A stretch of DNA of 61,422 bases, from assembly GCF_016907925.1 (NCBI RefSeq), contig NZ_JAFBCZ010000035.1, positions 1 through 61,422 on the forward strand. Direction: 5' to 3'. Of the stretch, positions 27,493 through 35,852 are shown one piece after another. The notes below the pieces were generated by a model. The model searched no databases. It had not been told where the DNA came from and saw only the letters and a program-made list of their open reading frames with translations. The translations under genes were made by a program, and so were the position numbers. This DNA comes from Herpetosiphon giganteus (GTDB lineage Bacteria; Chloroflexota; Chloroflexia; Chloroflexales; Herpetosiphonaceae). The number at the start of each line of letters is the position of its first letter. The stretch's first letter is position 1.

Positions 27493-27765
27493 AACATAGG
27501 GGCTGGGGATCGATTGTTGAGGGCGAGGAATCAGGAATTTGCTTTTAACGCAGAGCCGCAGAGAGTAAGCATCGGGAGCAGTGGTCAGGGTTCAGGGGTC
27601 AGGCTCTTGGCTTTGGGCGAACGGAAGCATAATCCCCATAATCTGTGTAATCTGTGGCGAAAAACTCATCCTTCGTGCTCTTCGCGTCCTTCGCGGTTTC
27701 AGCCATGCGTGGATCAAAACTCCCTAGCCCCTGAATCCTGCTCCCTGAACCCTCGGAAAATCATC
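27484..27765. repeat. Mosaic of dispersed short repeats
   Basis: A chain of motifs found in other spacers: catagaacatagagcatag, ttaacgcagagccgcagag, ggttcaggggtcaggctct, ataatctgtgtaatctgtgg, and cttcgcgtccttcgcggttt. No gene is visible. It ends three bases before the promoter of the lysine operon. Confidence 0.65.
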
Positions 27766-27767
27766 AC

Positions 27768-27796
27768 TTGACAAACTGAAATCTGCCTGCTATGCT
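27768..27796 (+). promoter_or_regulatory. Promoter of the lysine operon
   Basis: Consensus TTGACA (27768-27773) and TATGCT (27791-27796) are separated by exactly 17 bp. The predicted transcript starts near 27803 and would include the leader peptide at 27833 and the attenuator at 27949. Confidence 0.85.
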
Positions 27797-27832
27797 TCGG
27801 CGCAGAACTTTTGATTTGTGGAGTTTGTTGCT

Positions 27833-27919
27833 ATGTTCAGTCAACAATTGGTTCTGAACTTGAAAAAACGCAGCGCAAAGAAGCCAGGCAGCGAGTCTGG
27901 TTTATTGCGTCGCGTCTAA
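27833..27919 (+). CDS. Lysine-operon leader peptide (candidate)
   Basis: A 28-codon ORF beginning MFSQQLVLNLKKRSAKKPG and ending LLRRV. It contains AAA AAA and AAG AAG codon pairs, so four of 28 residues are Lys, plus three Arg. GGAG precedes the ATG by nine bases. It lies between a near-consensus promoter and an intrinsic terminator, upstream of lysine biosynthesis genes. This is the classic arrangement of a transcription-attenuation leader in which ribosome stalling at Lys codons reports charged tRNA-Lys. Just after the Lys codons, GCGAGTCT (27891-27898) can pair with AGGCTCGC (27948-27955). Function is inferred from layout, not known. Confidence 0.7.
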   Translation: MFSQQLVLNLKKRSAKKPGSESGLLRRV

Positions 27920-27948
27920 GCAACACTGCACGCGCTCAATAAACTCAA

Positions 27949-27980
27949 GGCTCGCCGCCACAAACGGCGAGTCTTTTTTT
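27949..27980 (+). terminator. Attenuator terminator upstream of homocitrate synthase
   Basis: The stem GGCTCGCCG/CGGCGAGTC (9 bp including one G-U) has a 7-nt loop and is followed by seven T. The 8-nt sequence GCGAGTCT of its 3' arm is repeated exactly inside the leader ORF (27891-27898), so the 5' arm can pair with either. The two structures are mutually exclusive. Confidence 0.85.
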
Positions 27981-28012: not shown

Positions 28013-28120
28013 ATGGCCACACTCAAGCAACTTAAACGGATTAGCCATCTTCACCGCCCTGCGGCAGTTCGCCCTGAATTGTTCACCGGATGTTCTTGCG
28101 GAAGGATTGTGCTTTCATGA
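28013..28120 (+). CDS. 35-codon micro-ORF overlapping the homocitrate synthase start
   Basis: A small ORF starting MATLKQLKRISHLHRP and ending GCSCGRIVLS. It has its own SD (AAAGGA, spacing 7). Its TGA overlaps the homocitrate synthase ATG as ATGA, so translational coupling is likely. It is basic at the N-terminus, with Lys and Arg codons early and a CxC near the end. It could be a second leader or a coupling ORF; no homolog is known to me. It lies after the attenuator. Confidence 0.5.
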   Translation: MATLKQLKRISHLHRPAAVRPELFTGCSCGRIVLS

Positions 28121-29250
28121 CCCGTCAGTTTGCAATTGTTGATACCACCTTGCGCGAAGGCGAACAATGGGCCAACGCCCACTTCAGCAGCGCAGATCGC
28201 CTAACCATCGCTAATTTGCTGGTTCAGTTTGGCGTTGAATATATCGAAATGACCTCGCCCTGCGCCTCGCCGCAAAGTGCGGCAGATTTGCGCAGCATTG
28301 CAGCCTTGCCACTCGGCAATACCAAGCTGCTGACCCATACCCGTTGCAACCTTGAAGACGTACAGCTTGCCGCTGAATGTGGCGTTGCTGGCGTAAATAT
28401 CCTCTTTGGCACCTCACCCTATCTGCGCCAATGGAGCCATGGTCGCTCAATTGAAGCGATTTTGGAAGAAGTTGGCCCAGTCGTGCGTTTCCTCCAAGAA
28501 CGGCAGATCGAAGTCCGTTTCTCCTGCGAAGATTCATTCCGCACTCCCTTGCCCGATTTGTTGCGCGTCTACCAAGCTGTCGATTTGCTTGGCGTGCAGC
28601 GGGTTGGCATCGCCGACACCGTGGGCATTGCCACGCCACGCGATGTTGAGCGGGTGGTTGGGGCAGTACGGAATGCAGTTCGCTGCGACATTGAATTTCA
28701 TGGCCACAACGACGGCGGCTGTGCAATTGCCAATGCCTATGCAGCGCTCGAAGCAGGCGCAACCCACATCGATACAACCATTCTTGGCATTGGCGAACGC
28801 AACGGCATCGCCGCCCTCAGCGGCCTGATTGCCCGCCTCTACCTCTCCGAACCTGAAAGTGTTGCAGGCTATGCCTTGCCAATGTTGGCCCAACTTGATC
28901 ATACAGTTGCGGCAATCTTGGGCATTCAAGTGCCGTTCAATGCCTGTATCACCAGCGAAACCGCCTTTGCCCACAAAGCTGGCCTGCATACCAAGGCTGT
29001 TTTGGCCAATCCCAGCACCTATGAAGCGATCGATCCCAATGCTTTTGGGCGCGAACGCAATGTGCTGATTGGTCATCGCCTAACTGGCCGCCATGCCTTG
29101 CAAAGCCGCGCCAACGCTCTCGGTTTGGAGCTGAGCGACACCACGATCATTGCGCTTGCAGCCCAACTCAAAGCTGCCGCCGATGATCAGCCGTTGACGC
29201 TCGATGAGGTGGATGCGCTGCTGCGCTCAAGCACCCTCCAAGCAGCCTAA
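28117..29250 (+). CDS. hcs: Homocitrate synthase
   Basis: Condenses acetyl-CoA and 2-oxoglutarate to homocitrate, the first step of alpha-aminoadipate lysine synthesis. 377 residues. TLREGEQ near the N-terminus and EFHGHND in the middle are metal/substrate motifs of the HCS/isopropylmalate-synthase TIM barrel. ATHIDTTILGIGERNG, and GETAFSHKAG-like ITSETAFAHKAGLHTKA, match the Thermus enzyme closely from memory. The ATG at 28117 (GAAGGA, spacing 10) is preferred over the upstream ATG 28090. There is no C-terminal regulatory domain beyond the short helical tail, as in Thermus. Confidence 0.93.
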   Translation: MTRQFAIVDTTLREGEQWANAHFSSADRLTIANLLVQFGVEYIEMTSPCASPQSAADLRSIAALPLGNTKLLTHTRCNLEDVQLAAECGVAGVNILFGTSPYLRQWSHGRSIEAILEEVGPVVRFLQERQIEVRFSCEDSFRTPLPDLLRVYQAVDLLGVQRVGIADTVGIATPRDVERVVGAVRNAVRCDIEFHGHNDGGCAIANAYAALEAGATHIDTTILGIGERNGIAALSGLIARLYLSEPESVAGYALPMLAQLDHTVAAILGIQVPFNACITSETAFAHKAGLHTKAVLANPSTYEAIDPNAFGRERNVLIGHRLTGRHALQSRANALGLELSDTTIIALAAQLKAAADDQPLTLDEVDALLRSSTLQAA

Positions 29251-29346
29251 CGATTTTTCGAGCAGGTCATTGAAATTGTTATTTCAATGCCGTAGCTTGC
29301 TATACCTTGATGTGCCATTTTTCAGCTATTTTTGGGAGTTTTTGCA

Positions 29347-30612
29347 ATGGGTCAGACATTTGCCGAGCAAATTTTGGGGCATGCTTCCGGTCGCAACGAC
29401 GTGCAAGCAGGCGATATGGTGGTAGTCAACGTCGATTTGGTGATGATGCACGATAGCCTCTCGCCAAGCATTATCGAAACCTTGCACAACGAATTGGGTG
29501 CTGAACGCGTGTGGGATCGCGACAAAGTTGCAGTGGTGATCGACCATGTTGCGCCAGCCGCCACGGTGCGCCAAGCAGAGCAACAACAACATGTGCGGCG
29601 TTGGGTCGCCCAACAAAGTATTTCGCACTTGTTTGATGTTGGGCGTGGCATCTCGCACCCTGTTTTGATTGAAGAAGGCCTTGTGCAACCAGGAATGCTA
29701 GTAGTTGGCAGCGATTCGCATAGCACTGGTTATGGCGCGGCGGCGGCATTTGGCTCAGGCATGGGCACGACCGACATCGCGCTAGCCCTCGCCACAGGCA
29801 AAACCTGGTTTCGGGTGCCAGAAACCGTGCGGGTTAATGCAGTTGGTAATTTTCAACCAGGCGTAAGCGTCAAAGATTTTGGCTTGTGGGCGGCGCGCAC
29901 GCTGCGAGCTGATGGCGCAACCTATCAAAGCGTCGAGTGGCATGGCGTTGATTTTCTTTCGTGGCGCGAACGTATGACCTTGGCAACCTTGTCGATTGAA
30001 GTTGGAGCCAAGGCCGGAATTGTTGCCCCAACTGGCTTGGGTGCTGAACATACTGTGCCAGCGTGGTTGCGAGTTGAGAATGATGCCCACTACAGCCGCG
30101 TTGTCGAATGCGATTTGAGCACGCTCGAACCGCAAGTCAGCGTTCCACATTATGTCGATAACGTCGTCGATTTGGCTGATGTCGGGCGGGTTGCGGTCGA
30201 TGTGGTCTATCTTGGCACCTGCACCAATGGCCACTACGAAGATATGGCCGCTGCCGCCAGCATCCTCAAGGGGCGGCGTTTGGCTCCGAATGTGCGCATG
30301 ATTGTGGTGCCAGCTTCGAGCGAAAGCCTGCATCGTGCTGCTAGCGATGGCACGTTGGCAACCTTAATTGCTGCTGGGGCGACGATCGGCACGCCTGGCT
30401 GTGGCGCATGCATTGGCCGCCATATGGGCGTGTTGGCTCCCGATGAAGTCTGCGTTTTCACTGGCAATCGCAACTTCCGCGGACGGATGGGCAGCCCAGG
30501 AGCCAATATCTACTTGGCCTCGCCCGAAGTGGCCGCCGCTACCGCCATCACCGGCTACATCACCCACCCGCGCAATGTGCTGCAAAGCACTGAACAAGCA
30601 GTTTTCGCCTAA
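29347..30612 (+). CDS. lysT: Homoaconitase large subunit
   Basis: The Fe-S dehydratase subunit that with LysU isomerises homocitrate through homoaconitate to homoisocitrate. 421 residues, the length of the split archaeal/Thermus type. Cluster ligands lie in YLGTCTNGH and GTPGCGACIG, and GSDSHSTGYGA is the conserved substrate loop. The ATG at 29347 has GGGAG eight bases upstream; a TTG at 29332 is a poorer start. The family is close to 3-isopropylmalate dehydratase (LeuC), but the neighbouring lys genes fix the call. Confidence 0.93.
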   Translation: MGQTFAEQILGHASGRNDVQAGDMVVVNVDLVMMHDSLSPSIIETLHNELGAERVWDRDKVAVVIDHVAPAATVRQAEQQQHVRRWVAQQSISHLFDVGRGISHPVLIEEGLVQPGMLVVGSDSHSTGYGAAAAFGSGMGTTDIALALATGKTWFRVPETVRVNAVGNFQPGVSVKDFGLWAARTLRADGATYQSVEWHGVDFLSWRERMTLATLSIEVGAKAGIVAPTGLGAEHTVPAWLRVENDAHYSRVVECDLSTLEPQVSVPHYVDNVVDLADVGRVAVDVVYLGTCTNGHYEDMAAAASILKGRRLAPNVRMIVVPASSESLHRAASDGTLATLIAAGATIGTPGCGACIGRHMGVLAPDEVCVFTGNRNFRGRMGSPGANIYLASPEVAAATAITGYITHPRNVLQSTEQAVFA

Positions 30613-30640
30613 TTTTTGCAATTGCACAGGAGTCAGCACT

Positions 30641-31138
30641 ATGCCACGGATTTGGGTTTTTGGAAATGATGTCAACACCGACCAGATGGTTCCAGGCCGT
30701 TATGCTCCCTACATGCTGGGCGCAAACGACGATGTGCGGCGCTATGCTTTTATCGAAGCGCGGCCCGATTTTGCCCCCAACGTTCAGCCAGGCGATTTGA
30801 TTATTGCTGGACCAAATTTTGGCTGTGGCTCAAGCCGCGAGTATGCGCCCTTGGCCTTGAAGCGCTGTGGGGTTGGCGCGATTATCGCTCCACTGTTTGC
30901 CCGCATTTTCTTCCGCAACGCCTTGAACTTGGGCATTCCCTGCTTCACCGCCGATATTCGCGAGCAAGTTGCCGATGGTGATGTTGTGGATTTTGATTTG
31001 GCTGCTGGCCTGATCACCAACAATGCCAACCAGATTCAGCTGCCACCACCAGAAGGCTGGATGCGCGAAGTTTGGGCTGAAGGCGGAATCGTGCCATTTT
31101 ACCGCCGCCATGGTCGCTTTCCGGCGACAGGAGCCTAA
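30641..31138 (+). CDS. lysU: Homoaconitase small subunit
   Basis: The swivel-domain subunit partner of LysT, 165 residues. It begins PRIWVFGNDVNTDQMVPGRY and carries GPNFGCGSSREYAP, the conserved loop of aconitase-like small subunits that sets substrate specificity (YLRS/YLxS-type region). The ATG at 30641 has GGAG eight bases upstream. A long frame beginning at 30368 overlaps lysT and is rejected. It ends two bases before the next gene. Confidence 0.93.
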   Translation: MPRIWVFGNDVNTDQMVPGRYAPYMLGANDDVRRYAFIEARPDFAPNVQPGDLIIAGPNFGCGSSREYAPLALKRCGVGAIIAPLFARIFFRNALNLGIPCFTADIREQVADGDVVDFDLAAGLITNNANQIQLPPPEGWMREVWAEGGIVPFYRRHGRFPATGA

Positions 31139-31140
31139 GC

Positions 31141-32136
31141 ATGACCAGCTTGTGTTTGATTGCTGGTGATGGGATTGGCCGCGAAGTCGTGCAAGCAGCC
31201 CGCCAAGTGCTCGAAGCCTTGGCCGTTCCTGCCCAATTTGTCGAGGCCGAAGCAGGTTGGAAAACCTTTCAACAAACTGGCAACGCCTTGCCCGAACAGA
31301 CTTTAGCTGCAATCCAAGCGGCCAACGCAACCTTGTTTGGCGCAGTTAGCTCGCCATCGCAACGAGTTGCTGGCTATCGCAGCCCAATTGTTGGCATGCG
31401 CAAAGCCCTCGATTTGTATGCCTGCGTGCGCCCTGTGCAAACGCCGCCGTTGGCCAATGCGCGGGCTGGAGTCAATTTGGTGGTGGTGCGCGAAAACACC
31501 GAGGGTTTGTATAGCGGCCAAGAAACCCGCGAGGGCGATGAACGGGCGACAGCGCAGCGAATTATCACGCGTCAAGCCAGCGAGCGAATTGTGCAATGGG
31601 CAGTGCATTATGCTCAGCGCACTGGCCGCCGCAAAATAACCATCGTGCACAAGGCCAATGTGTTGCGCGAAACCTGTGGTTTGTTCCGTGAAACCGCGCT
31701 GCGGGTGCTGGCCGATGCACCTGATTTGCAGGTTGAAGAAATGTTGGTTGATAACGCGGCCTATCAATTGGCGCGTGCGCCCGAACGATTTGAAGTGCTG
31801 GTCACCACCAATTTGTTTGGCGATATTCTCTCGGATGTGGCCAGCGTGTGGGGTGGCGGGCTTGGCTTGGCGGCTTCGGCCAACTACGGCACGCGCACGG
31901 CGGTGTTCGAGCCAGTTCATGGCAGCGCACCCGACATTGCCGGCCAAGGCAGCGCCAATCCATTGGCAACCTTGAGCGCTAGCGTGTTGATGCTCGAATT
32001 TGTGGGCTTGAACAGCTACGCCGAACGCTTACAAACCGCGATTCAAGCAGTATTAGCCAATGGGCCATACACGCCGGATCTTGGCGGCACAGCCACAACG
32101 GCTGAGGTGGTGCAGGCAGTGATTGACCAGTTTTGA
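31141..32136 (+). CDS. hicdh: Homoisocitrate dehydrogenase
   Basis: Oxidative decarboxylation of homoisocitrate to 2-oxoadipate with NAD. 331 residues, beta-decarboxylating dehydrogenase family. Motifs: LIAGDGIGREV, VVVRENTEGLYSGQE, VTTNLFGDILSD (metal Asp) and EPVHGSAPDIAG (cofactor). Close to the Thermus HICDH by recall. The gene starts two bases after the lysU stop (TAAgcATG), so translational coupling is likely. It could in principle also use isocitrate, as known for the Thermus enzyme. Confidence 0.92.
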   Translation: MTSLCLIAGDGIGREVVQAARQVLEALAVPAQFVEAEAGWKTFQQTGNALPEQTLAAIQAANATLFGAVSSPSQRVAGYRSPIVGMRKALDLYACVRPVQTPPLANARAGVNLVVVRENTEGLYSGQETREGDERATAQRIITRQASERIVQWAVHYAQRTGRRKITIVHKANVLRETCGLFRETALRVLADAPDLQVEEMLVDNAAYQLARAPERFEVLVTTNLFGDILSDVASVWGGGLGLAASANYGTRTAVFEPVHGSAPDIAGQGSANPLATLSASVLMLEFVGLNSYAERLQTAIQAVLANGPYTPDLGGTATTAEVVQAVIDQF

Positions 32137-32460
32137 TCCACGAAGAGCACGAAGAGCACGAAGGCCAGAAACCACGAAGAACGCGAAGAGCACGAAGGAG
32201 TGAGAAATGAAGGATGAAAGGCTCTAGGCTTTTGGCTATCAGAATAATTTAACTCCCCTCGCCCATCGGATGGGAGAGGGGTTGGGGGTGAGGGGACTTC
32301 TAGCCCCCGACCACTACCCTTGAAACCACGAAGGACGCGAAGAGCACGAAGATGATGAGGCTCTAGGCTTTTGGCTATCGGAATAATTTAACTCCCCTCG
32401 CCCGCGTTCAGTGGGAGAGGGGCTGGGGGTGAGGGAATATCACCCCTAACTAAATAAAGG
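32137..32460. repeat. Repeat-filled spacer inside the lysine operon
   Basis: A 334-bp gap between homoisocitrate dehydrogenase and lysW. It holds cacgaagagcacgaagagca iterations, then two direct copies of a segment starting ggctctaggcttttggctat (about 32220 and 32362), each followed by a partial palindromic repeat (32254-32299 and 32392-32436, type ctcccctcgccc...gggagagggg). The layout is a tandem duplication of about 140 bp. No gene or clear promoter is visible. Confidence 0.7.
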
Positions 32461-32470
32461 AATTAAACAA

Positions 32471-32638
32471 ATGAGCGCACAATGCCCAGAATGTGAAGGA
32501 ACGATCGCGTTGGCAGCCGATATTTTGGATGGAGAGATTGTGCCATGCCCCGATTGTGGCGCAGAACTCGAAGTCGTCAGCCTGAACCCAGTTGTTTTGG
32601 AATTAGCACCTGAAGTCGAAGAAGACTGGGGCGAGTAA
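32471..32638 (+). CDS. lysW: LysW amino-group carrier protein
   Basis: A 55-residue acidic carrier protein. A zinc finger (CPEC...CPDC) occupies the N-terminal half, and the C-terminus is EDWGE. The terminal Glu gamma-carboxylate is ligated to the amino group of alpha-aminoadipate by LysX and carries the intermediate until LysK releases lysine. The sequence ends with the invariant EDWGE. AAAGGA is nine bases before the ATG. It lies 13 bases before the lysX start. The size and both motifs leave little doubt. Confidence 0.97.
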
Positions 32639-32651
32639 GGGAGTTATGGCA

Positions 32652-33515
32652 ATGCGTGTAGGTATGTTGTGTTCCCGAATTCGGGTTGAAGAAAAGCTGC
32701 TGATCAATGAATTTGAGCGGCGCAATGTCCAATTTGAACGAATTGATGATGATCAGACATGGTTTGATTTAAATGCTTTGCAAGCTAATCGTCAAGTGCG
32801 CGCGCAATTTCCTGATGTGATTATTGAGCGTTCGTTGCACCATGGTCGGGCCTTATACACGCTCAAAACTTTGAACGATGCTGGCATTCCAACGGTCAAC
32901 AATTATAACGTGGCCTTGACCTGTGGCGATAAATTTTTGACGACCCAAGCCTTATTGCGCAACGGCGTGCCATCGCCGCGCTGTTTGCTGGCCTACACCC
33001 AAGAATCGGCGCTCGAAGCAATTGAAAGCTTGGGTTATCCGGTGGTGTTGAAGCCAGTTATTGGCTCGTGGGGTCGCTTGGTCTCGAAGATCAACGATCG
33101 CGAAGCTGCCGAAGCAGTGCTCGAACATCGCGACACCTTGGGCAATTATCAGCACGCAATTTTCTACATTCAAGAATATATCAACAAGCCAGGTGGCCGC
33201 GATATTCGGGCGTTTGTGGTTGGTGATGAGTGCATTGCGGCGATTTATCGCACCAGCGGCCACTGGATCACCAATACTGCGCGCGGCGGCGCAGCCTCGA
33301 ATTGCCCTATTACGCCAGCCTTGGCCGATATTTGCATCGGCGCGGCCAACGCGGTTGGCGGCGGCGTGGTTGCAATCGATGTCTTCGAAACTGCTGAAGG
33401 TCGCTATTTGGTCAACGAAGTTAATTACACCATGGAATTTCGCAACAGCATTAGCACAACTGGGGTGAACATTCCCGAACGCATTGTTGATTATGTGCTA
33501 GCTCAAGCACAATAG
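32652..33515 (+). CDS. lysX: LysW-alpha-aminoadipate ligase
   Basis: An ATP-grasp ligase joining alpha-aminoadipate to the LysW C-terminal Glu. 287 residues. Motifs: [51 protein letters not shown], and [17 protein letters not shown]. The GGAASN substrate loop resembles aminoadipate-specific LysX rather than glutamate-specific ArgX (family knowledge; a search would settle it). GGGAG is eight bases upstream of ATG 32652; ATG 32646 is too close. It lies 30 bases before lysY. Confidence 0.95.
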
Positions 33516-33545
33516 TTGGCGCGCTGTAGCCAAATTGAGGTTGTT

Positions 33546-34580
33546 ATGCTTTCAGTTTCGATCGTTGGTGGTTCTGGCTATGTCGGTGGTGAATTGCTGC
33601 GTTTATTGTTGGGGCATCCCCACGTCGAGGTGCGTCAGGTCACCAGCGAACGCTTAGCAGGCCAATATGTCTACAGCACCCACCCCAATTTGCGCGGGCG
33701 CACGGAGTTGCGCTATAGCCCACAAAGTAGCTTGGAGCCGTGTGATGTGTTGATTTTGGCCTTGCCGCATAGCTCGGCTGCCAAAAACATCGAGCATTAT
33801 GCTGGCCTTGGCCAAGCAATTATTGATTGTTCTGCCGATTTTCGCTTGCGCGACCCCGAGGCCTATAGCCGTTGGTATGGCGAAAAACACCCAGCCCCGC
33901 ACTGGCTTGAGCGCTTTGTCTATGGCTTGCCGGAGCTGTATCGCGAGCAAATTCGCTCAACCCGCTATGTCAGCGGCGTGGGCTGCAATGCAACAGCGAT
34001 CAACTTGGCGCTCTTGCCCTTGGTCAAGGCAGGATTGATCGATCAAACCAAGCCGGTGGTGGCCGAAGTCAAGGTTGGTTCGTCCGAAGCGGGCGCAGTT
34101 GCCAACGATGGCAGCCATCATGCCGAACGCTCAGGCGTGGTGCGCTCGTTCGCCCCAGTTGGCCATCGCCACACCGCCGAAATTATGCAAGCGCATGGCC
34201 TTGAAAATGTGCATATTTCGATCACGTCGGTGGAAATGGTGCGCGGTGCTTTGGCTACTTGCCATGTATTTACTCAAGGCTCGGTCAACGAACGCGATCT
34301 CTGGCGAGCCTATCGCGCTGCCGCCGCCGAACAACCATTTTTGCGGATTGTCCATGATCGTAGTGGTTTGCACCGCCATCCTGAGCCAAAAATCTTGGCT
34401 GGCAGCAATTATGCCGATATTGGTTGGGCACTTGATGAAGCGACTGGCCGCGTGGTGGCGCTGTGTGCCCTCGATAACTTGATGAAGGGCGCAGCCGGAG
34501 CCGCCATCCAATGCTTGAATCTGATGCATGGCTTCGAGGAAACAGTAGGCCTTGAGTTTACAGGCTTGCATCCGGTGTAA
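33546..34580 (+). CDS. lysY: LysW-aminoadipyl-6-phosphate reductase
   Basis: NADPH-dependent reduction of the LysW-bound aminoadipyl phosphate to the semialdehyde. 344 residues, ArgC-like. N-terminal SIVGGSGYVGGELLRLLLGH, catalytic Cys in VSGVGCNATA, and PVGHRHTAEIMQ near the active site. The ATG at 33546 has GAGG five bases upstream; the frame from 33516 is an extension without SD. The next gene, lysZ, is separated by a 468-bp repeat region. Confidence 0.93.
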   Translation: MLSVSIVGGSGYVGGELLRLLLGHPHVEVRQVTSERLAGQYVYSTHPNLRGRTELRYSPQSSLEPCDVLILALPHSSAAKNIEHYAGLGQAIIDCSADFRLRDPEAYSRWYGEKHPAPHWLERFVYGLPELYREQIRSTRYVSGVGCNATAINLALLPLVKAGLIDQTKPVVAEVKVGSSEAGAVANDGSHHAERSGVVRSFAPVGHRHTAEIMQAHGLENVHISITSVEMVRGALATCHVFTQGSVNERDLWRAYRAAAAEQPFLRIVHDRSGLHRHPEPKILAGSNYADIGWALDEATGRVVALCALDNLMKGAAGAAIQCLNLMHGFEETVGLEFTGLHPV

Positions 34581-34641
34581 GAACATAGAGCATAGAGCAT
34601 AGAACATAAGGGTCAGGGGCTAGGGGTCGGGGGGTCAGGGG
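34581..34641. repeat. Short-repeat tract after lysY
   Basis: gaacatagagcatagagcat and ggggtcaggggcta iterations, as in other spacers. They directly abut the MITE-like element. Confidence 0.55.
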
Positions 34642-34822
34642 CCTTTCAAGGGTAGATTTTCGCTGCAAACCACGGATATGCTGGTTCATCGGTGGATGAA
34701 TGACTGCCGATCCATGCCCTTGAGGGGGTGCAGGGGGATTAAAGCCCCCTGCGTTTCCCGCCTTGAGGCGGGACGGAAGGGTGGTGATCACCCATGATTG
34801 GAAAAAACCTACCCTTGAAAGG
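34642..34822. mobile_element. 181-bp MITE-like element with 14-bp perfect inverted ends
   Basis: It begins CCTTTCAAGGGTAG and ends CTACCCTTGAAAGG, perfect inverted terminal repeats; similarity continues inward (ATTTT/AAAAAAC). It contains two internal hairpins, gcaggggg/ccccctgc and cccgcct/aggcggg. No ORF is inside. The flanks both carry ggtcagg, possibly a target-site copy, but the surrounding sequence is itself repetitive. A non-autonomous element sitting inside an operon spacer. Confidence 0.65.
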
Positions 34823-35040
34823 GGTCAGGAGCTGGGGATCGGGGGTAGGGGATCAGGGTTTCGAGGATATTAAGCTGGATTTTAACGCAGAGGCGCAGAG
34901 CGTTGATAAGGATGAAGGATGAGGGATGAAGATCAAAGGTAAATCTGTGCAATTTGTGGCAAAACCTCAACCTTCGCGATCTTCGCGTCCTTCGCGGTTT
35001 CAGGCTTCGTGCCCTTTGTGCTCTTTGTGGATCAAATAAG
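34823..35040. repeat. Short-repeat tract before lysZ
   Basis: ggggtcaggagctggggatc, cgcagaggcgcagagcgttg, ggatgaaggatgagggatga and cgtccttcgcggtttcaggc motifs. No gene is visible. The SD of lysZ (AAGGA) comes immediately after. Confidence 0.6.
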
Positions 35041-35048
35041 GAACAACC

Positions 35049-35852
35049 ATGCTTGTGATAAAAATTGGCGGCGCGGCGGGCATTGATTATAGCAATCTTT
35101 GCAACGATATTGCCCAGCTTGCCGCCCAAGGCCAACCGATTGTGCTGTTTCATGGTGGGTCGGATGGAGCCAACACGCTTGGCGAGCAGCTTGGTCATCC
35201 GCCGCGATTCATCACCTCGCCGTCGGGCCACACCAGCCGCCAAACTGATCGCCGCACGCTCGAAATTTTTATGATGGCGACAGCCCTACTCAATCGCCAG
35301 CTGGTTGAGCGCTTGCGCGGCTTGGGAGTCAACGCTTTCGGTTTATCGGGCCTCGATGGTGGCTTGCTGCAAGGCAACCGCAAAACCAATGTTCGGGCGG
35401 TCGAAAACGGTCGGGTGCGCGTGATTCGCGACGATTGGACGGGCAGCATCGACCAAGTTAATCGCGATTTATTGCAAATGTTGCTGAGCACTGGCTATCT
35501 GCCAGTCATCGCACCATTGGCGGTCAGCGCTGCGGGCGAGCCATTAAATATTGATGGTGATCGCGGCGCGGCCAGTGTGGCAGCTGCACTCGAAGCCGAA
35601 ACCTTGTTGCTGCTAACCAATGTGAGCGGCCTATATCGTAATTTTCCCGACGAAAGCAGCCTAATCGAGCGTTTGCCACGAACGGAATTAACTCACGCCA
35701 GCGAAAAACTCGCCCAAGGCCGCATGAAGAAAAAATTACTGGGAGCACAAACCGCGCTTGAGGCTGGCGTGCGCCGCGTGATAATCGGCGATGGCCGCAG
35801 CGAGCAACCAGTCAGCGCCGCGCTCGCAGGCAATGGAACAATTATCGAATAG
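35049..35852 (+). CDS. lysZ: LysW-aminoadipate kinase
   Basis: Phosphorylates the side-chain carboxylate of LysW-bound aminoadipate. 267 residues, amino-acid-kinase fold, ArgB-like. N-terminal VIKIGGAAGID, VLFHGGSDGAN, LSGLDGGLL and the C-terminal NIDGDRGAASVAAALEAE and RMKKKLLGAQ motifs. SD AGGA is close to the ATG. It begins a second gene block (lysZJK) after the repeat region. Whether it is still on the same transcript cannot be seen. Confidence 0.93.
   Translation: MLVIKIGGAAGIDYSNLCNDIAQLAAQGQPIVLFHGGSDGANTLGEQLGHPPRFITSPSGHTSRQTDRRTLEIFMMATALLNRQLVERLRGLGVNAFGLSGLDGGLLQGNRKTNVRAVENGRVRVIRDDWTGSIDQVNRDLLQMLLSTGYLPVIAPLAVSAAGEPLNIDGDRGAASVAAALEAETLLLLTNVSGLYRNFPDESSLIERLPRTELTHASEKLAQGRMKKKLLGAQTALEAGVRRVIIGDGRSEQPVSAALAGNGTIIE

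Follow-up and report, generated by a model that had tools for sequence, protein, structure and literature searches.

Ribosome-mediated transcription attenuators control the trp, his and leu operons of Proteobacteria. Leader-peptide attenuation has reportedly been described also for the lysine cluster of Thermus thermophilus, in which Lys codons of a leader peptide are said to stand ahead of the cluster of the alpha-aminoadipate (AAA)/LysW pathway (Tsubouchi et al. 2005, J Biol Chem). Lysine riboswitches (RF00168) and T-box leaders (RF00230), which work without a leader peptide, occur before the homocitrate synthase gene of this pathway in other Chloroflexota, the T-box matches staying below the gathering score.

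The window (the whole stretch of DNA analysed, 61,422 nucleotides of Herpetosiphon giganteus) carries ahead of its AAA/LysW operon an element that, judged from its sequence, is very probably a ribosome-mediated transcription attenuator sensing the supply of lysyl-tRNA. It resembles the trp, his and leu attenuators in its leader peptide with codons for the amino acid of the pathway, its P1 hairpin, its antiterminator and terminator, and the order of their energies; it differs from them in phylum, in its Lys codons and in the pathway served, AAA/LysW. Covariance models of the lysine riboswitch and the T-box gave no match in the window, whose three sub-threshold matches in Rfam (best E 0.043) were taken as chance; a search of eight attenuator loci against Rfam returned none at the gathering score. 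The mechanism is classical attenuation. Among titles and abstract openings retrieved in a literature search, no report of a Lys attenuator of this pathway was recognised; the statement of the earlier note that no Lys-codon attenuator of the pathway was known in any organism is nevertheless doubtful in view of the Thermus report, to which priority probably belongs. What is new is the breadth, co-variation and codon swap of the scaffold. The element gives the bacterial AAA/LysW lysine pathway a probable lysine sensor in Chloroflexota.

The leader and its predicted folds

Table 1 Features of the leader and of the genes downstream in the window (positions of the window; Lys residues numbered within the leader peptide).
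Feature	Position	Strand	Basis or remark
Promoter TTGACA-N17-TATGCT, extended -10 TG	27768..27796	+	Consensus scan
Leader peptide ORF, MFSQQLVLNLKKRSAKKPGSESGLLRRV*	27833..27919	+	ORF list; frame kept in relatives
First Lys pair, AAA AAA (K11 K12)	27863..27868	+	Varies among relatives (KK, KQ..K, others)
P1 (1:2) hairpin, holds antiterminator 5' strand	27868..27915	+	-26.9 kcal/mol, z -5.3
Second Lys pair, AAG AAG (K16 K17)	27878..27883	+	KK kept in relatives; fold scan
Antiterminator 5' strand (region 2)	27891..27907	+	Pairs with 27937-27955 over 17 bp; co-variation test
Antiterminator 3' strand (region 3), overlaps terminator 5' arm	27937..27955	+	Folding, co-variation
Intrinsic terminator, 11-bp stem and seven T	27947..27980	+	Hairpin scan, folding
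Second small ORF, 35 codons, VRPELF motif	28013..28120	+	ATGA overlap with the start of homocitrate synthase
Homocitrate synthase, first regulated gene (predicted)	28117..29250	+	TIGR02146 best, 410.6 bits, just below cut-off 413.55
Homoaconitase large and small subunits, homoisocitrate dehydrogenase-like gene	29332..32136	+	Family models
LysW carrier protein	32471..32638	+	TIGR01206, 73 bits against cut-off 53.2
LysX, ArgC/LysY-like reductase, [LysW]-aminoadipate kinase	32646..35852	+	TIGR02144, TIGR01850, NF010659, all above cut-off

A promoter is followed by a short ORF that looks translated, and an intrinsic terminator precedes the first gene; the codons of the ORF match the amino acid of the pathway, and the antiterminator, which co-varies, excludes both P1 and the terminator (Table 1). 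The -35 box (27768-27773) is separated by 17 bases from the -10 box (27791-27796), before which stands TG; ten of twelve consensus positions agree, and both boxes are identical in the six Herpetosiphon loci compared (L006-L011). A 1-kb scan gave two promoter-like sites (0.6 expected) and two terminator-like sites against 1.5 expected, so that the terminator pattern by itself is not beyond chance. The leader ORF of 28 codons runs from ATG at 27833 to TAA at 27917-27919. The repeat GCGAGTCT lies inside the leader (27891-27898) and again in the terminator 3' arm (27967-27974), AGGCTCGC in the 5' arm (27948-27955), and the run of seven T at 27974-27980. Promoter, 28-codon ORF, AAA AAA and AAG AAG, repeat copies and T run were all found where the earlier note had placed them. 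Just upstream of the promoter, an intergenic repeat-like stretch (27720-27754) matches four further sites of the genome.

The 186-base leader folds with a z score of -4.7. The terminator hairpin described in the earlier note was recovered; its stem, given there as 9-10 bp, folds as 11 bp (27947-27975; -17.6 kcal/mol, z -5.4). The antiterminator proposed there through the 8-base repeat likewise pairs, its extent having been underestimated: it is extended by 27899-27907 with 27937-27945 to 17 bp in all, of which eight had been seen, and its segment 27887-27957 reaches -31.4 kcal/mol (z -4.7). That extension, the long P1 hairpin (27868-27915), which includes the second Lys pair, and the small ORF at 28013-28120 were absent from the earlier description. 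For P1, antiterminator and terminator alike, none of 200 shuffles folded as well.

The ribosome stall, the fold in vivo and the response to lysine would then run as follows. RNA polymerase would start just 3' of 27796, and a ribosome would translate the 28-codon leader. Given sufficient Lys-tRNA, this ribosome would pass K16-K17, cover region 2 and end at 27917-27919; with region 3 left free to join the terminator 3' arm, transcription would stop near 27980. Without a ribosome, region 2 would be held by P1 and the terminator would form too. With Lys-tRNA short, the ribosome would wait at the Lys codons, most likely at K16, and block P1, whereupon region 2 (27891-27907) would pair with region 3 (27937-27955), pre-empting the terminator and allowing transcription of homocitrate synthase and the AAA/LysW operon.

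The position of the stall was approached by folding the RNA downstream of the ribosome at every position, with equilibrium energies and an assumed footprint of 12 bases past the A-site start. For the full element of the window, placing the A-site at K11 or K12 left the terminator as winner; A15 and K16 favoured the antiterminator, and every position from K17 to the stop codon again the terminator. The first Lys pair, on which the earlier note had placed the stall, is thus not favoured in the window, and among lysine-gene leaders it is the second KK that is kept (50/58); the conserved pair K16 K17 is likely the sensing pair. In a window transcript truncated 5' of the terminator 3' arm, a ribosome standing anywhere up to K17 allowed the antiterminator to form, so that early pairing singles out no codon. 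In seven elements scanned, the antiterminator won with the A-site on Lys in four: the window, L075 (both Lys of the second pair), L018 (first pair) and L069 (an earlier Lys); it won on no Lys codon in L014, L046 (Arg codon only) and L107. As the shorter transcript allows either pair and L018 fits the first pair better, stalling at the second rather than the first pair is no more than a tendency.

Conservation and co-variation upstream of homocitrate synthase

Upstream regions were taken from at least 30 loci and from the best 80 of 244 loci of homocitrate synthase relatives; after removal of duplicates 92 distinct regions were left, and 71 of these bear the element. Carriers range from Herpetosiphon to Caldilineaceae and Anaerolineae and include Herpetosiphon, Chloroflexus, Oscillochloris, Litorilinea, other Caldilineaceae and Leptolinea; the conservation in other Herpetosiphon and Chloroflexota for which the earlier note had proposed to look was found. 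The search pattern, which required two Lys codons and arms resembling CCGGAC and GTCTGG, by itself found 65 of 101 regions before full de-duplication; 15 of the 80 carrier loci (12 of the 71 distinct) were added by eye after these 65. All 71 distinct elements have an ORF that is in frame with the Lys pair (the other two frames give 5 and 14), and in all 71 a hairpin begins 44-75 bases 3' of the pair, the script picking the best hairpin in the stretch. KK was found in 68/71, partly by construction, since the pattern itself required Lys codons. Less circular is the figure for lysine-gene leaders found with R1, a covariance model built from 32 of the elements: KK stands at the second position in 50/58, and in 9 of the 13 that stand before a first gene other than homocitrate synthase, a class not represented in the training set of R1. 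Two KK pairs within the last 18 residues occur in only 13 of these 58.

A T-rich tail (at least five of ten) follows in 65/71 distinct elements; in four of the six others (L081, L082, L083, L094) the chosen hairpin ran into the T run, in L099 the tail is masked by N, and L032 is without a T-rich tail. The T run is broken (AATTGTTT and similar) in L070, L075, L026, L027, L032 and other Chloroflexus-type loci, where termination may therefore be weak or factor-dependent. In L113 and L114 two attenuator-like elements stand in tandem 5' of homocitrate synthase, both matched by R1 in each locus; the second in L113 has mixed Lys/Cys codons.

Co-variation of regions 2 and 3 was measured by exchanging strands between elements. 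Over 61 distinct pairs the duplex averaged -18.1 kcal/mol with its own partner and -15.5 kcal/mol with swapped partners; the own duplex was the stronger in 62/66 lineage pairs (12 lineages, drawn from the sequences themselves, unequal and not fully independent), and 0 of 20000 permutations were as good, permutation and Fisher values treating related sequences as independent. Lineages differ in their pairing solutions, for example GCGAG:CTCGC (Herpetosiphon) and GCGGG:CCCGC (L014, L039). In alignment A1 (32 sequences), 7 of 10 consensus terminator pairs changed on both sides; RNAalifold on alignment A2 (27 sequences) gave no double-sided pair changes, which leaves A1 and the swap test as the basis for pair co-variation. 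In these two the co-varying antiterminator and terminator stems that the earlier note had asked after were found. P1 plus terminator lies below the antiterminator segment in energy in 65/65 distinct elements, and the antiterminator segment below the terminator alone in 46/65; these comparisons give the order of energies that a switch requires. Minimum free energy folds link upstream sequence to the terminator arm in 61/65 elements, against 61% of shuffles; mean energy with real and shuffled upstream sequence (-24.7 vs -17.8 kcal/mol) separates better than this link frequency.

The 21 regions outside the carriers hold other regulators in part. In 11 of twelve loci from MAGs (grouped by eye) a lysine riboswitch precedes the homocitrate synthase gene; the twelfth (L059) has only 197 bases upstream. 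T-box matches below the gathering score were obtained in L052 (E 3.6e-13) and L054 (E 3.3e-12), and in L043 the element is cut by the contig end. No regulator was identified in the upstream regions of L053, L078, L088, L091, L096 and L111; L088 has a small ORF with Lys/Arg and a hairpin, and R2 matched weakly in L111 (E 0.098). Given the riboswitches and T-box-like leaders of relatives without the element, lysine control of the homocitrate synthase gene appears common and its mechanism variable: within one phylum the same enzyme gene has at least three RNA controls (peptide attenuator, lysine riboswitch, T-box-like leader).

The same scaffold upstream of other genes

With an E limit of 0.1, R1 matched 56 of 60 relatives; across 150 genomes of the class, at an E limit of 0.01, it matched 69, of which 66 belong to the order. 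Both counts include the training genomes and G029. The match in G029 (L157) was taken as false, its downstream gene being none of the reference genes. Elsewhere in the genome of the window, the next match had E 4.07 and was taken as noise. Independent of the training set, R1 found the scaffold before homoaconitase, LysX, LysE-type and argG genes, and it also matched L113, L109, L114 and L047. R2 gave at least 12 matches over 400 genomes of the phylum, with no more than eight candidates scored per genome, and this number was therefore left out of account.

Codons and downstream gene were scored in 79 of 85 loci, with K, R and Q weighted equally in the score that picked the leader frame. In 58 of these loci the first gene is a lysine gene (homocitrate synthase in 45, homoaconitase in 11, LysX in 2), in 7 it is argG and in 14 a LysE-type gene. 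Left out were L239 and L155 (element cut by the contig end), L157, L233 (Arg/Gln-rich leader, without a reference gene downstream), and L153 (before argG) and L223 (before a LysE-type gene), in which the script found no leader frame. Lys exceeds Arg in 55/58 leaders before lysine genes and in 0/7 before argG; means of K/R/Q over the last 18 codons are 3.7/1.9/1.1 and 0.3/4.3/0.7, respectively, and all seven scored argG leaders carry Arg, not Lys, codons. In 7/58 lysine-gene leaders Lys does not outnumber both Arg and Gln: another of the three is commonest in L144, L230 and L156, and ties occur in L227, L238, L147 and L015. This apparent natural codon swap, Arg before argG and Lys before lysine genes, is the best evidence for the proposed mechanism, and lysine-sensing attenuation ahead of the LysW operon, as the earlier note had it, gains strong support from the comparison of relatives.

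Arg-codon leaders on the same scaffold precede argG in L148-L154, L165-L180 and L222. Among the best 30 argG upstream regions, Arg-rich leaders of this kind are present in L165-L180 (that of L176 read from the sequence, that of L177 judged by likeness to L176 and L179); in L181-L194, with the genome of the window among them (L193), no Arg leader was seen. The 14 LysE-type loci, named from Pfam PF01810 on two fragments, one a composed reference, comprise five Lys leaders and nine in which Gln is commonest or ties with Arg. Gln-rich leaders are those of L217, L218, L219, L220 (Gln tied with Arg), L221, L224, L232, L234 and L159; one would not expect an exporter family to be controlled by a Gln-codon attenuator. 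In L140, L158, L225, L228 and L231 a LysE-type gene stands behind a Lys-codon leader, with LysX downstream in four of the five; since it would be paradoxical for lack of lysine to induce export, direction or substrate of transport may differ.

It is fairly likely that one inherited Chloroflexota attenuator scaffold has been re-tuned through its leader codons, to Lys for AAA/LysW, to Arg for argG and to Gln for LysE-type genes. If so, nature has in effect run a set of codon-swap experiments on a single RNA fold. The scaffold seems to have changed its amino acid through codon replacement and, with several RNA controls on one gene, this makes the evolution of attenuator specificity directly testable.

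The codon swap also bears on other readings of the leader. That the Lys-rich ORF and terminator do regulate, with the leader peptide or the RNA itself binding lysine as an arrest peptide or riboswitch, agrees with the riboswitch before the same gene in other Chloroflexota and with the ending often shared by leader peptides (..KKPxxxSG*); we consider it improbable, as the window has no riboswitch match, the scaffold before argG bears Arg codons instead, and the conserved end of the leader overlaps the RNA pairing regions, by which its conservation can be explained. Still less probable is a leader that chiefly senses arginine or general translation through R13, R25 and R26, although the last 18 codons of the window leader (L006) hold three Arg beside four Lys: in the fold scan the terminator wins with the A-site on R13, and a ribosome stalled at R25-R26, past region 2, would favour termination; moreover, the downstream genes make lysine, and the Arg-codon version stands before argG in many relatives, with none seen in the genome of the window itself. 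An ordinary terminator beside a fortuitous small ORF in a repeat-bearing intergenic region, as the repeat-like stretch upstream (27720-27754) and the near-equal frequency of terminator-like patterns in shuffles might suggest, is hardly credible against the conservation, the co-variation and the match of codon to gene. Attenuation through lysyl-tRNA supply is accordingly the reading we prefer.

Downstream genes and the second small ORF

In the predicted operon, the homoaconitase large subunit exceeds the subfamily cut-offs (NF001614, TIGR01343) and the small subunit the cut-off of NF010629; the homoisocitrate dehydrogenase-like gene has TIGR02088 as best model, below cut-off. Neither NCBIfam nor Pfam gave a match for the window copy of the second small ORF. 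With a pN/pS of 0.36, measured on 17 codons of 24 distinct sequences, this ORF is conserved as a peptide; it may act as a translational coupler or as an arrest peptide. A [VC]RPELF-like small ORF lies between the terminator and homocitrate synthase in 36 of 101 regions, duplicates included. Further downstream, a second repeat-like intergenic stretch was noticed by eye at about 32150-32450.
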